A stretch of 64,000 bases of DNA from Lentilactobacillus buchneri (GTDB taxonomy: Bacteria; Bacillota; Bacilli; Lactobacillales; Lactobacillaceae): assembly GCF_018314255.1 (NCBI RefSeq), contig NZ_CP073066.1, positions 2,170,001-2,234,000 on the forward strand, given 5' to 3'. Below the pieces are notes generated by a model that worked only from the letters and a program-made list of their open reading frames with translations, was not told the origin of the DNA and did no database searches. Both the position numbers and the translations under genes were made by a program. The stretch's first letter is position 1, and each line of letters starts with the position of its first letter. Shown in pieces: positions 28,031 to 63,817 of this stretch.

Positions 28031-28942
28031 ATGACAATGGTGATTACTGGGGCCTTGATCAAAAAGGCAAGAAAAGATAAGGGGATGTCCCAAGTTCAGC
28101 TCGCTGAAGGGATTTGTACCCAAGCAACCATCAGTTCCATCGAAAATCAAAATACGTGCAGCAGTGTTGACATTCTGGTCAACCTCTGCCAAAAACTGGA
28201 TTTAAAAATTACCGATGTTGCCAAGAATACGCGATATGGTGATAAAGTCTTCTCTTACATTGAAGACGATATGCGGAATCATTTGTATGCCGACGCTAAT
28301 AGACAAATTGGTCGGATTGACTGCAAAAAGTTGAATACCCGATATATGTTGGGCAAGTATCATTGCTATCGGGGATTCATTGAATTGTATATCAATGATG
28401 ATATTGATGAGGCCATTTTCAACTTCAATCTTCAATTGACGCAGTATTCCGCTGATGAATTTACCTTTTACCAAGCCTGGTCCAATTTGGGCATTGGTCT
28501 GGCTTATCAAAAGCTGGGGAAATTGGATCGCGCCGAAGGGTTCATTGATTCCAGTGCCAAAATTTTGGCTAAAGTCAAAAAGGCCGGCAAGCACGATATG
28601 ATCGTGATTGTTGACCTCTATGTGGACATTATTGCCGCGTACGCCGAGTTGGGTAAATATGATCGGGCGCTGCCGCTCATTCATGAAATTTTACACGAAT
28701 TGACGGAGCAGGATTTGATTTATAAGGTGGACGTGCTGGCGGAGTTGGAATCAAAATGCCTGTATGCCAAAGGATAGGTCGTCCAGGCCACTATGAAGCA
28801 GTTTGCAGCGATGTTTATTGCGGAACTTCGCGGGAACACGGAATTGGCTGAGAAAATTCTTAAGCGCAACCAGTCCCATATTGTCGAGATGGTCAAAAAC
28901 GAGCTTGCAAAAAGTGAGGGGCATCCGACCTTTGTTAAGTGA
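28031..28942 (+). pseudogene. Helix-turn-helix/TPR-like transcriptional regulator, interrupted by in-frame TAG
   Basis: The frame starts with an XRE-type helix-turn-helix (residues about 6-60: ALIKKARKDKGMSQVQLAEG, TISSIENQN) followed by helical repeats of the Rgg/PlcR-type TPR kind. It stops at TAG 28775-28777 (codon 249), but the same frame continues without another stop for 54 codons to TGA 28940-28942 and encodes a further helical repeat (ATMKQFAAMFIAELRG, NTELAEKILKRNQ). The undisturbed protein would be about 303 residues, the usual size for this class. A truncated 248-residue product lacking the last repeat would be made. Nonsense mutation is likelier than a natural end; an assembly error is not excluded. 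Confidence 0.8.
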
Positions 28943-31373: not shown

Positions 31374-31389
31374 TATTACACTCCAATAC

Positions 31390-31417
31390 TATTTATGACC
31401 GGCTATTTATGACCGGC
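31390..31417. repeat. 14-bp tandem duplication across the rarA stop codon
   Basis: TATTTATGACCGGC occurs twice in immediate succession (31390-31403 and 31404-31417). The unit includes the end of rarA with its TAG stop; the protein end is unchanged by the duplication. Confidence 0.9.
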
Positions 31418-32680
31418 AGATTTTCTAAGCTTGGCATATTGTTCTTTAAACGCGGCCTCAATTCGACCGTTTTCTTTCGGGTGGTAATACTGAGCATTTT
31501 TGATTTTATCAGGCAGGTATTGTTGTTTAACCCAGTCGTTGGGAAAATCGTGGGGGTATTTGTAGGTCACCCCGCGGCCAAGTTTCTTGGCACCTTGATA
31601 ATGCGCATCTTTGAGGTGCAGTGGGACATCACCATAGTTACCGGATCGAATGTCACTTACGGCACCATCAATTGCGGCCATCGCGGAATTGGACTTGGGA
31701 CTTAAACAAAGCTCAATGATTGCGTTAGCAAGTGGAATTCGTGCTTCGGGAAGCCCCAGTTGACGCGCAGCGTCAACAGCAGCAACCGTTCTTTGACATG
31801 CTCCTGGATTAGCCAGGCCGACATCTTCATAGGCAATTACCAGTAATCGCCGCATGATCGAAACCAAGTCACCGGATTCAATCAATCTGCCGGCATAATG
31901 TAGGGCTGCATCCGTATCCGAGCCGCGAATCGATTTTTGAAAAGCAGAAATGACGTCGTAATGGGCATCACCATTTTTATCGGAATTGAGTGCTTTTCGC
32001 TGAAGGCATTCCTCGACGATTGCCTGGGTGACGGCGATTTTTCCCTGATCATTTTTGGGTGTCGACTTCACTGCAAGTTCCAAGGCATTTAACGATGAGC
32101 GCAAATCACCATTAGTGGCAGTTGCCAAAAAGTTTAACGCTTCTTTGGTAATCGACACCGGATAATTACCCAAACCTTTTTCTTTGTCGTTTAACGCGCG
32201 ATTGAGGGCTTTTTGAATATCAGTTGGGGTGAGGGGATGTACCTCAAAAATTTGGGTTCGCGATCGAATGGCCGGATTGATGTTAATGTATGGGTTCTCA
32301 GTGGTGGCCCCAATTAAAATAATTGAGCCGCTTTCAAGTAATGGCAATAGAAAATCTTGTTTTGTTTTATCGAGTCGATGAATTTCATCGAGCAACAGGA
32401 CGACCGTGCCGCTCATCTTGGCTTCCTCGGCGACAACCTGTAAATCTTTTTTGGTGTCGGTAGCAGCGTTGAGAACTCGAAATGCATATTTGGTCGAGCC
32501 GGCAATGGCGCTGGCAATGCTGGTTTTCCCAGTTCCCGGCGGCCCATATAAAATCATTGACGACAGCATCTTGGCACGCACCATCCGGTCGATTATTTTA
32601 CCTGGGCCGACTAAATCCTGCTGGCCGACAATTTCTTCAAGCTTGGTCGGTCGCATTCGATAGGCAAGGGGTTGTTGCAT
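31403..32680 (-). CDS. rarA: Replication-associated recombination protein A (AAA ATPase)
   Basis: Clamp-loader-like AAA+ ATPase (RarA/MgsA/WRNIP1) acting at stalled replication forks. 425 residues with Walker A GPPGTGKTS, Walker B VLLLDEIHR, sensor GATTENPY and the C-terminal tetramerisation region with YKYPHDFPNDWVKQQYLP. The second ATG (32680) is preferred, as GGAGG is six bases upstream of it and abuts the first ATG at 32686. It follows an extended -10 promoter and the rpsD terminator. Confidence 0.93.
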   Translation of the reverse strand: MQQPLAYRMRPTKLEEIVGQQDLVGPGKIIDRMVRAKMLSSMILYGPPGTGKTSIASAIAGSTKYAFRVLNAATDTKKDLQVVAEEAKMSGTVVLLLDEIHRLDKTKQDFLLPLLESGSIILIGATTENPYININPAIRSRTQIFEVHPLTPTDIQKALNRALNDKEKGLGNYPVSITKEALNFLATATNGDLRSSLNALELAVKSTPKNDQGKIAVTQAIVEECLQRKALNSDKNGDAHYDVISAFQKSIRGSDTDAALHYAGRLIESGDLVSIMRRLLVIAYEDVGLANPGACQRTVAAVDAARQLGLPEARIPLANAIIELCLSPKSNSAMAAIDGAVSDIRSGNYGDVPLHLKDAHYQGAKKLGRGVTYKYPHDFPNDWVKQQYLPDKIKNAQYYHPKENGRIEAAFKEQYAKLRKSAGHK

Positions 32681-32727
32681 ACTCATCCTCCTCTCAAATT
32701 GTGATGGTTAAAAATCAAATCCTATAA

Positions 32728-39099: not shown

Positions 39100-39114
39100 T
39101 AAAATTAAATTAAA

Positions 39115-39339
39115 GTGTTGAGCAAGAGAGTAGCCAACGTTTCGGTTTCAGAAAGAAAATCATTGCTGTGAGATTTTTACCGGGCGTTGAGTGAAGGTAG
39201 CTTGTGAGCTGCTTATCTTCAATTGAAGATGAGTCGGTATTATCAGACCGTTATTATGATATTAAGTGGGGCTTTTCAGCCCAATTTAGGTGGTACCGCG
39301 AACACTTCGTCCTAATTTACAGGATGGGGTGTTTTTTTA
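39115..39339 (+). promoter_or_regulatory. T-box riboswitch, valine-specific
   Basis: T-box TTAGGTGGTACCGCG at 39287-39300. The Stem I base GCAAG pairs with CTTGT, and the specifier loop reads GAA-G-GTA-G, giving codon GTA (Val) at 39197-39199. The terminator is AACAC-TCCT pairing with AGGA-GGTGTT (39301-39330), followed by seven T. It regulates valS in response to uncharged tRNA-Val. Confidence 0.93.
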
Positions 39340-39378
39340 TTACATAAAAACGATTTGAATTTTGGAAGGAGTGACGTT

Positions 39379-59295: not shown

Positions 59296-61884
59296 TTGGC
59301 AAAAAAAGAATTAACTCCAATGATGGTGCAATATCAAAAAATCAAGGACCAGTATCCGGATGCTTTTTTGTTCTACCGTCTCGGTGATTTCTACGAGATG
59401 TTCAATGAGGATGCCATCAAGGGTTCACAGTTATTGGAATTAACTTTGACGAACCGGAGCCGGAATGCGGCCAATCCGGTTCCAATGTGTGGTGTGCCCC
59501 ACAAAGCGGTGCAAAATTATATTGATATTCTAGTCGACCAGGGATACAAAGTCGCAATCTGTGAACAAATGGAAGATCCACGATTGGCTAAGGGAATGGT
59601 CAAACGAGAAGTCATTCAATTGGTGACACCGGGTACGCAGGTGGATGTTGGCAGTGAAAACGCCAAGTCCAATAACTATCTGACTGCGGTGGTGGATGAT
59701 CAAAAAAACCATGAGTTTGCCTTCTCATACGCCGATCTTTCCACTGGTGAACTCAAAGTTGCCAAATTAACCACACAGGCTGAATTTGTTAACGAACTGG
59801 TTTCTTTACAGACTAAGGAAATTGTCGTTGATACTGATTTACCGGAGTCAATTCAAGATACGATTCAAAAGTTGGGGATTTTGATTTCCCATCAATCGGT
59901 TCTGCCGGTCAATGCCTCAGTCAGTTACTTAAGCCAGGACGTTGATGACGACTTGATGAAACGGGTTGTCAAACTCCTGTTGGATTATATCCAGGCAACC
60001 CAAAAAAGAAGCCTGCAGCATTTAAAGCGGGCAGTGATTTATGAACCCTCAGATTTTTTGGAACTCGACCACAATTCTCAATACAATTTGGAATTAATCC
60101 GCAATATTCGCACAGGTAAAAAAGCCGGCACTTTATTGTGGCTGCTTGACCAAACCAAAACTGCGATGGGCGGCCGAAAACTCAAACAATGGATTGAGCG
60201 GCCTTTGGTGAACCGCAAACTGATTAATCAACGCCATGATGCAGTTGCCGTGTTACTGGATCACTATTTCGAACGAAATCAACTCCAAGACGAGTTAATC
60301 AAGGTTTACGATCTGGAACGATTGGCAGGTCGGATTTCCTTCGGCAGTGTCAATGGCCGTGATTTGATTCAACTCAAGGCTTCGCTCAAGCAGGTCCCGA
60401 AGATTAAATATATTTTGGAGCAAATCGCCGACAAGAGTTTTGAGGATATGCTCAAAAATCTGGTTCCATTGGATGATGTCGTCGACGAAATTGATTCTGC
60501 GATCGTCGAGGAACCGCCAATTTCAGTTACTGATGGTGGGGTGATTAAGGATGGCTACAATCAACAGCTGGACACTTACCGGGACGCTACCAATAACGGT
60601 CAAAAATGGTTGGCTGAACTGGAAGCGAAAGAACGTAAAATTACCGGCATTAATAACTTGAAAGTTGGTTTTAATCACGTTTTTGGTTACTATATTGAAG
60701 TCACCAAGGTCAACTTGGACAAGATTCCTGCAAACCGTTATCAGCGCAAACAAACCCTGGCCAACGCCGAGCGATTCTCGACGCCGGAGCTGAAGGAAAA
60801 AGAAGCGTTGATTTTAGAGGCCCAGGAACAAAGTAAAACTTTGGAATACAAGCTATTCGTTAAGATCCGTGATGACATTAAAAAATCCATCAAACGAATT
60901 CAGGATTTAGCAGATGCCGTAGCGTCAATCGATGTCTTACAGAGCTTTGCCGCCGTCAGCGAGGAGTACCGATTTGTTCGACCAACGCTTACGACGCAGC
61001 ATGTGGTTGAAGTCAAAGACGGTCGCCACCCAGTTGTCGAAAAGGTTTTGGGCCACCAGCAATACGTCCCAAATGACGTTAATCTGGGCGAAGATACCAG
61101 CATCTTACTGATTACCGGTCCCAACATGTCTGGTAAAAGTACCTATATGCGTCAAATGGCACTATGCGTCATCATGAACCAAATGGGGTGTTTTGTGCCT
61201 GCCAAACATGCCAAACTGCCGGTGTTTGACAAAATTTTCACTAGAATTGGGGCCGCTGATGATTTAATCTCGGGCCAAAGTACGTTCATGGTCGAAATGA
61301 AAGAAGCCAACGATGCCATTGAGAATGCCACTCCCAACAGTTTGATTTTGTTTGATGAAATTGGTCGGGGGACTGCAACCTACGATGGGATGGCGTTGGC
61401 CCAAGCAATTATCGAATATGTTCATAACAACATTGGTGCTAAAACCCTGTTTTCAACCCATTACCATGAATTAACTGTTTTGGATGAGTCTCTCAAACGC
61501 CTGCAAAATGTCCATGTCGGCGCGACTGAATCCAATGGCGAACTGGTCTTTTTGCATAAGATTCAGCCGGGCCCTGCCGATAAATCATACGGAATCCATG
61601 TGGCTAAATTGGCAGGTCTGCCAGAAGGGTTATTACACCGTGCTAACGACATTTTAACCAACCTTGAGCAACAGGCCGATAAAGAGCATCAAACGGCCTC
61701 CGCACCAAAGCAGGCGCCTCAGCAGGCAGCTGAGCAGCAGACGTCTTTATTTCCCCTTGAGCAAATTGATGATAAACAAGCCGAAGTTGTGTCACAATTA
61801 AAGAAATTGGACTTGATGGGGAAGACTCCCATGCAAGTGATGAATCAAGTTTACAAATGGCAGCAGAAGATAAACGGAGACTAA
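59296..61884 (+). CDS. mutS: DNA mismatch repair protein MutS
   Basis: Mismatch recognition ATPase, 862 residues and intact. The mismatch-wedging Phe-x-Glu is in DFYEMF (Phe32, Glu34), Walker [10 protein letters not shown] near residue 608, Walker [17 protein letters not shown] and FSTHYHEL are present. A Gln/Ala-rich linker precedes the C-terminal end. TTG start with AAGGGGA upstream. Followed by mutL after one base or more, depending on start choice. Confidence 0.96.
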
Positions 61885-61894
61885 GGTGATTGAT

Positions 61895-63817
61895 TTGAAT
61901 GAAATTCATAAGCTACCAACAATCCTTTCCAACCAGATTGCCGCCGGTGAAGTTGTTGAACGACCGGCATCAGTGGTTAAGGAATTAGTTGAAAATTCAA
62001 TAGATGCCAAGAGTTCGGAAATCGATGTCACCGTTGAAAATTCGGGCTTGAAGTTGATCAAAGTTGTCGATGACGGCAACGGAATTGACAGCTCTCAAGT
62101 TCAGACGGCCTTTTTACGACATGCGACCAGCAAAATTTCTGAGCAACGGGATTTGTTCCGCGTTCGGACACTCGGGTTCCGTGGCGAGGCACTCCCCAGT
62201 ATCAGTTCCGTCGCTAACGTTCGGATGAAGACGTCAACCGGTTCGATTGGAACGGAAGTTGAATACAAAGGCGGCAAGCTTGTCACTCAAAAGGCTTCTG
62301 AATCACGGTAAGGGACCACTGTTGAAGTGGCATCACTGTTCTATAACACGCCGGCTCGTTTGAAGTATTTAAGTTCACCGAATACAGAGCTTTCCAAAAT
62401 ATCAGACATTGTCAACCGCTTGGCATTGAGTCATCCTGAGATTGCTTTTTCATTTATCAGTAACGGCCGTGAATTGTTAAGAACTTCCGGACGTGGGGAT
62501 TTACGCCAGGTTTTGGGCGCAATTTATGGTGTCAAGACGGTTTCAAAGATGGCGGCAATTAAGGGAAATGATTTGGACATCAAAGTCAGTGGGTATGTGA
62601 GTTTACCGGAATTGACCCGTTCAAGTCGAAACTATATTTCACTGATTTTAAACGGACGCTTTATTCGCAACTTTCCGTTAACCAAAGCGGTGATTGCGGG
62701 CTATGGTTCCAAATTAATGATTGGGCGGTTTCCAATTGCCGTAATCAACATTGACGCCGATCCCGCTTTGATCGATGTCAATGTTCATCCAACCAAGCAG
62801 GAAGTTCGGATTAGTGACGAACCGATGATTGGTAAATTAATTGCCAATGCCATTTACGACATGCTAAGAGACAAGCAGCTGATTCCAGATGCAACCAGGG
62901 ATTTCAAACAGCCGGTTCAAGCTGCACCAAGACAGTTTGATGTTTCGACTGCCACTCAGGCTCAAACAAATCCACCGCTGTTTGCCGTCGACACACCAAC
63001 GACGCCTTCAATTTCCCAACCTGAAGTAACGCCGGTGGTGGTCAAAACCAGAGACGACCTTGCCAGCTCACAAGTTGCTCAATTTGATGACTTTCTTAAA
63101 AATGAGCCGAGTGGCTTGCCTGCATTTGAAGGAACCCAGCCAAAAACGATTGACAATCACCAGCCGAGTGCCAAGCCTGAGCAGTCTGAACTGGTAGTGG
63201 AAACCGGTTTTCCGCATCTGGACTACATTGGTCAAATTCATGGCACCTATCTGGTGGCTGAAACAGCCGATAATATGTATCTGGTGGATCAACACGCAGC
63301 TCAAGAACGGATTAACTATGAGTTTTACCGTAAGCAAATTGGCGAAGTTTCTGATGACCAACAGAAATTATTGGTGCCAATTGTGCTCGATTACTCAACC
63401 TCGGATTTCTTGATGATTAGCGACCGTTTGGACCTGCTGGACAAACTTGGAATTCATTTGGAGCCGTTTGGACAGAACAGTTTCATCGTCCGTGAGCACC
63501 CAATGTGGTTTAAGGCCGGGCAGGAAGAAGACACCATTAAAGAAATGATTGACTGGATTTTATCCGATCATAAAATTTCCGTGGCCGCCTTCCGCGAAAA
63601 AACGGCCATCATGATGAGCTGTAAGCGGGCCATTAAGGCGAACCATCATCTTGATGAGCTCCAGGCAAAGGCGTTACTGAAACGGCTGCCTGAGTGCGAG
63701 AATCCATATAACTGCCCCCATGGCCGGCCGGTTCTGGTGAAATTTACCAATGAGGATATTGAAAAAATGTTCAAACGGATTCAAGACCCCCATCATACAG
63801 ACCAAGAAATCATCTAG
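61895..63817 (+). pseudogene. mutL: DNA mismatch repair protein MutL, interrupted by in-frame TAA
   Basis: One continuous frame of about 640 codons with a single TAA at 62309-62311 (codon 139 counted from TTG 61895; GTG 61886 is an alternative start). Before it: GHKL ATPase motifs [27 protein letters not shown] and [11 protein letters not shown]. After it, in the same frame: [12 protein letters not shown], the full C-terminal endonuclease motif [12 protein letters not shown], the [11 protein letters not shown] and CPHGRP motifs. Everything but one codon is normal for a Gram-positive MutL. The truncated product would lack ATPase motif IV and the dimerisation/endonuclease domain, so mismatch repair should be lost, unless the stop is an assembly error or is suppressed. 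Confidence 0.9.

Follow-up and report, generated by a model that had tools for sequence, protein, structure and literature searches.

Mismatch-repair genes are known to be lost or damaged in several lactic acid bacteria. In Lactiplantibacillus plantarum lineages evolved in mice, loss of one base from mutS was accompanied by a 41-fold faster build-up of mutations, according to the available part of PMC9795633. A fast-evolving Lactococcus lactis strain carries a mutL mutation (Bachmann et al. 2012, as cited in accessible passages of PMC4494047), and Oenococcus is described as having constitutively lost both mutS and mutL (Marcobal et al. 2008, as cited in accessible passages of PMC4494047 and PMC12504390). 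Lentilactobacillus buchneri is a starter culture, a silage species and a brewery contaminant (PMC11008148). In related groups mutL is used as a taxonomic marker, as stated in the accessible portion of PMC8399863.

Here we describe the mutL gene of one L. buchneri genome, whose reading frame is interrupted by a single premature stop codon. A broken mutL is a known, ordinary kind of event; this is a new instance of it, and general understanding is unchanged. Among the titles and abstract openings of the literature we found no report of this lesion, and the words mutL, mutS and mutator are absent from the main text of a paper on eight L. buchneri strains.

The mutS-mutL locus and its premature stop

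The window, that is, the whole 64,000-nucleotide stretch of DNA that was analysed, has at its end the gene order mutS-mutL-ruvA (the last presumably, by its first residues), with one base between mutS and mutL. These genes, and a leader elsewhere in the window, are as follows:

59296..61884, + strand: mutS, intact, 862 aa (TIGR01070 match, 1,106 bits)
61886..63817, + strand: mutL frame of 643 codons and a stop, broken at codon 142
61886..62311, + strand: 5' mutL ORF, 141 aa, with GHKL ATPase motifs I-III and then the stop (profile match)
62309..62311, + strand: premature TAA, mutL codon 142 (all 15 named Lentilactobacillus species have a sense codon here)
62327..63817, + strand: 3' mutL ORF, 496 aa from GTG, with the remaining ATPase/transducer part and the C-terminal endonuclease domain; possible weak re-start
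39109..39317: T-box leader, upstream of the ORF at 39355 (RF00230, 124.7 bits)

An earlier sequence-only reading had taken mutS to be intact and mutL to be inactivated by one in-frame TAA with undamaged flanks. The mutS frame is indeed whole, its product being one residue away from protein P0222 (31 member sequences). The mutL frame starts at GTG 61886 and ends with the stop at 63815-63817, and its sole in-frame interruption is the TAA, read as codon 142 of an otherwise open frame. Since the other two frames carry 34 and 56 stops across the same interval, the mutL frame is coding and its single stop conspicuous. The flanks bear out the earlier description too: the upstream 141 aa match TIGR00585 (MutL) at 4.6e-64 over profile positions 1-134, the downstream 496 aa match NF000950 (MutL) at 7.7e-197 over positions 147-641, and all motifs looked for are present. 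Both parts thus match curated MutL models in order, which places the frame in the MutL family.

The stop sits within the ATP site, between motifs that we take to be ATPase motif III (residues 97-103) and motif IV (residues 143-148). What we take to be the endonuclease motif is intact at 63287-63322 (residues 468-479). The nearest solved chains by sequence are 9n2k for the N-terminal domain and 3gab for the C-terminal domain, both presumably Bacillus subtilis MutL. Because the two best solved relatives align to intact MutL over residues 9-334 (9n2k) and 7-343 (5akb), the stop lies inside the N-terminal domain. Its site is outside any homopolymer, and a one-base change from the nearest relative's codon would have been a transversion.

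The roles of the parts of MutL are well established. Translation stopping within the ATPase domain would give a 141-aa product without motif IV, the transducer domain, the C-terminal dimerisation region or the endonuclease site; lacking these, it would leave MutS able to bind mismatches yet unable to trigger incision. A second MutL was not found in the genome, where there is one PF01119 match and one match to the intact protein. With the ATPase domain cut and no second copy, loss of mismatch repair is the natural reading and is likely; the strain may mutate faster, 'mutator' being a prediction.

mutL in related genomes

By MutL identity the nearest named relatives are L. parakefiri (94%), L. 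otakiensis (91%), L. sunkii (90%) and L. kefiri (88%). Comparison with relatives came out in favour of the earlier claim: TAA is absent at codon 142 from the mutL genes of all 15 named Lentilactobacillus species, none of which is split there, and MutL is present in 24 of 24 same-genus genomes with an internal stop in one, the L. buchneri genome itself (G000; 2,537,205 bases in two contigs). These same-genus results (n = 24) are complete, while internal stops in more distant genomes are as seen among the matches listed. The possibility that a broken mutL is common in the genus was rejected, as flagged stops in two further genomes, G016 and G004, precede the real start. In G016, as in the out-of-genus genome G123, the flagged stop comes before the real start, at residue 3. 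In G004 the alignment is free of stops from residue 4 onward, and L046, a contig equal in length to that of G004, has its stop at codon 3.

MutL was found in 390 of 397 genomes drawn from the family. All seven without it, two of which are less than 70% complete, come from a single genus, where no genome has MutL; in the light of the accessible passages of the two papers cited above for this loss, we take the genus to be Oenococcus. A search of viral contigs for relatives found none. In the L. parakefiri assembly, a frame change splits a 346-aa gene that lies some 1.7 kb downstream of mutL (L058, G015:C79:16355).

An intact 643-aa protein, P0002 (15 member sequences), is 99% identical to the window's mutL frame. 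Start residue aside, it differs at the stop column and at four other residues; at one of these, residue 288, the window differs from all eight relatives compared. Its identity suggests that P0002 comes from the same species. Because so near a relative is intact, the lesion is probably strain-level and recent, as the earlier reading had proposed. A protein of about 496 aa was not among the best 120 of 7,995 scored candidates, where 90% clustering could hide a truncated product.

Age of the lesion and other damage in the genome

With L. otakiensis as outgroup, the mutL branch of the L. buchneri genome has 95 synonymous changes, 15 non-synonymous changes and one stop change, and that of L. parakefiri 97, 21 and none. 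The similarity of these counts (95/15 vs 97/21) indicates that mutL was under normal selection until recently. A relative-rate test with L. parakefiri (G015) as sister covered 137 gene triples and 137,595 sites. Unique changes numbered 7,270 in the L. buchneri lineage and 8,213 in the sister, of which 5,517 (76%) and 6,075 (74%) respectively were transitions; unique amino-acid changes numbered 619 and 1,056. The test shows no long-term acceleration of the lineage, which has fewer unique changes than its sister, and the 137 triples give no sign of long-standing loss of mismatch repair. Any mutator state is therefore young, or else the stop is an assembly error; a young mutator would be invisible both to this test and to the survey of broken genes below. 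Changes at four-fold sites were close, 2,470 in L. parakefiri and 2,279 in L. buchneri, despite the gap in amino-acid changes.

Two other lesions had been named in the window as consistent with elevated mutation:

28031..28942, + strand: HTH-type regulator frame with TAG at 28775-28777 (codon 249 of 303), seen in the sequence
31389..31417, no strand assigned: 14-bp sequence duplicated exactly in tandem (L. otakiensis has a single copy)

Both exist; that they point to raised mutation found no support. The regulator frame otherwise differs at one residue from an intact regulator protein, P0122, and its lesion looks strain-level and a clean substitution, a transition if one base was altered in a codon for the P0122 residue. 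Only this stop, not the mutL transversion, fits the mismatch-repair spectrum. The duplication extends across the final codons and the stop of the minus-strand ORF 31403-32686 into the space past it, and leaves the end of that ORF unchanged, as in L. otakiensis. A 14-bp tandem duplication is moreover not a recognised mismatch-repair signature. The results from the sampled part of the genome likewise lend these lesions no weight as mutator support, as none of five broken genes is hit in a run of at least six equal bases and the lineage is no faster than its sister.

The five come from a survey of 380 kb of the L. buchneri genome, in which 340 of 361 L. otakiensis ORFs were testable. Broken inside were mutL, the regulator, and three genes named tentatively from their sequences: pyruvate-oxidase-like, aminotransferase-like and comGA-like. 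Runs of at least six bases numbered 338 in the 319 ORFs whose L. otakiensis match exceeded 75%. An internal stop was the cause of the break in two of the 340 tested genes, mutL and the regulator. The pyruvate-oxidase-like gene (584 codons in L. otakiensis) is split by a one-base deletion at G000:C1 ~2146360 (L100). In the aminotransferase-like gene the stretch GGGGGAGGGGG, two runs of five G, goes with a frame change at G000:C1:2093679-2093689 (L098); it is unique as a pattern within the 380 kb scanned and is a possible assembly artefact. The comGA-like competence gene (G000:C1:2258223-2260177, L055) is disrupted near both ends: at the 5' side by an IS30-like transposase, and at the 3' side by the loss of one base from a run of three.

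In all, 21 L. otakiensis ORFs were flagged, and 14 with events only in the first 40 or last 8 residues were set aside; the comGA-like gene was one of these, and re-examination in the light of the L. parakefiri query put it back into the count. Of the other seven, three were dropped: a 169-aa gene whose stop column is common to L. parakefiri, a doubtful 88-aa ORF, and a gene of 224 aa whose N-terminus matched poorly. Stops in what is presumably polC and in other genes were set aside or dropped as start or end differences or doubtful ORFs. The converse tests found one gene broken inside in L. parakefiri (147 L. buchneri and 143 L. otakiensis ORFs tested), where a second flag was the same 169-aa gene, dropped in both genomes for its shared stop column. 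L. otakiensis had no clear broken gene (343 L. buchneri and 147 L. parakefiri ORFs tested); set aside there were a match at 68% identity containing three stops, a 98-aa ORF at 66% identity containing two, and a frame change early in a 283-aa gene, in its first 29 residues. With so few cases, no excess of broken genes can be claimed for the L. buchneri genome.

Alternative explanations and comparison with known systems

We consider it probable that a recent nonsense mutation inactivated the sole mutL of this one L. buchneri strain. The stop would instead be a sequencing or assembly error, and the strain would have a working MutL, on a reading that we hold to be unlikely but worth serious weight: an intact, near-identical P0002 exists, the protein of about 496 aa is absent from the best 120 of the 7,995 candidates, the same assembly has the suspicious GGGGGAGGGGG breaking another gene, and a mutator signature was seen neither in the 380-kb survey nor in the 137 triples. 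Errors in homopolymers fit poorly, however, with a TAA site outside any such run, and the regulator lesion likewise appears to be a clean substitution. Runs of seven bases number 112 per 380 kb in both L. buchneri and L. otakiensis, and runs of at least eight number 5 and 8; with counts so alike, there is no strong run error of the long-read type.

Some functional MutL might also be made despite the stop. The GTG at 62327 lies 16 bases past it, and its predicted anti-Shine-Dalgarno pairing of -5.1 kcal/mol narrowly places it in the best tenth (-5.0) among 5,740 internal start-like codons. Translation restarting there would give the 496-aa piece, with its endonuclease motif intact, and this piece, alone or with the 141-aa piece, would keep some repair. 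We regard this as quite improbable: the pairing is weaker than that at the annotated mutL start (-6.6) and at about 70% of 120 ATG starts of long ORFs, and is probably due to chance, as the sequence upstream is ordinary coding sequence. Moreover, the ATP site itself is interrupted, between motifs III and IV, leaving the C-terminal piece without motifs I-III, and the 15 named relatives have no split at codon 142. A working two-piece MutL is more doubtful still: here a weak ribosome-binding site would overlap the stop, and the separate N- and C-terminal pieces made by restart at GTG 62327 would retain some endonuclease activity and set an intermediate mutation rate. Readthrough or suppression of the stop to give full-length MutL would accommodate two strain-level stops, TAA and TAG, in one 64-kb window, yet appears extremely improbable. 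A tRNA family search, in which 150 of 173 first-look candidates were scored, gave 63 matches, and no suppressor anticodon was found at any of the 63 (ARAGORN, 22 loci covering all of them); among the 340 tested genes, only mutL and the regulator are broken by an internal stop.

To return to a recent nonsense mutation in the sole mutL, we infer a correct base call, a null gene product and a raised mutation rate. Weighing against it are the poly-G oddity at G000:C1:2093679, by which the assembly may hold errors; the lack of a mutator signature in the 380 kb sampled; the GTG 16 bases past the stop, which could allow a weak re-start; and the judgement, made by identity, that P0002 is probably conspecific. 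If the stop is real, a species associated with food, silage and breweries includes a mismatch-repair-deficient strain, which bears on strain stability. For anyone taking this genome as a reference, its mutL would then also be an outlier allele of a gene that has served as a marker in related groups.

Both halves of the L. buchneri frame belong to the same family as the endonuclease-type MutL of 9n2k and 3gab, unlike which the frame is interrupted at codon 142. As in the L. plantarum mutS mutators, a loss-of-function lesion affects one mismatch-repair gene in a species that otherwise keeps it; here, in contrast, mutL is the affected gene and carries a stop, known from the sequence. The L. lactis strain, as the citing passages present it, is likewise a lactic acid bacterium with a mutL lesion, but one that was fast evolving, whereas the L. 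buchneri lesion is known as a sequence change. With Oenococcus, as far as those passages describe it, the strain shares its bacterial family and the want of a working MutL. Both genes are reported absent there, whereas in L. buchneri mutS is intact and only one of 24 genus genomes is broken in mutL; with MutL present in all 24, the L. buchneri case is distinct from a genus-wide loss of the Oenococcus type.
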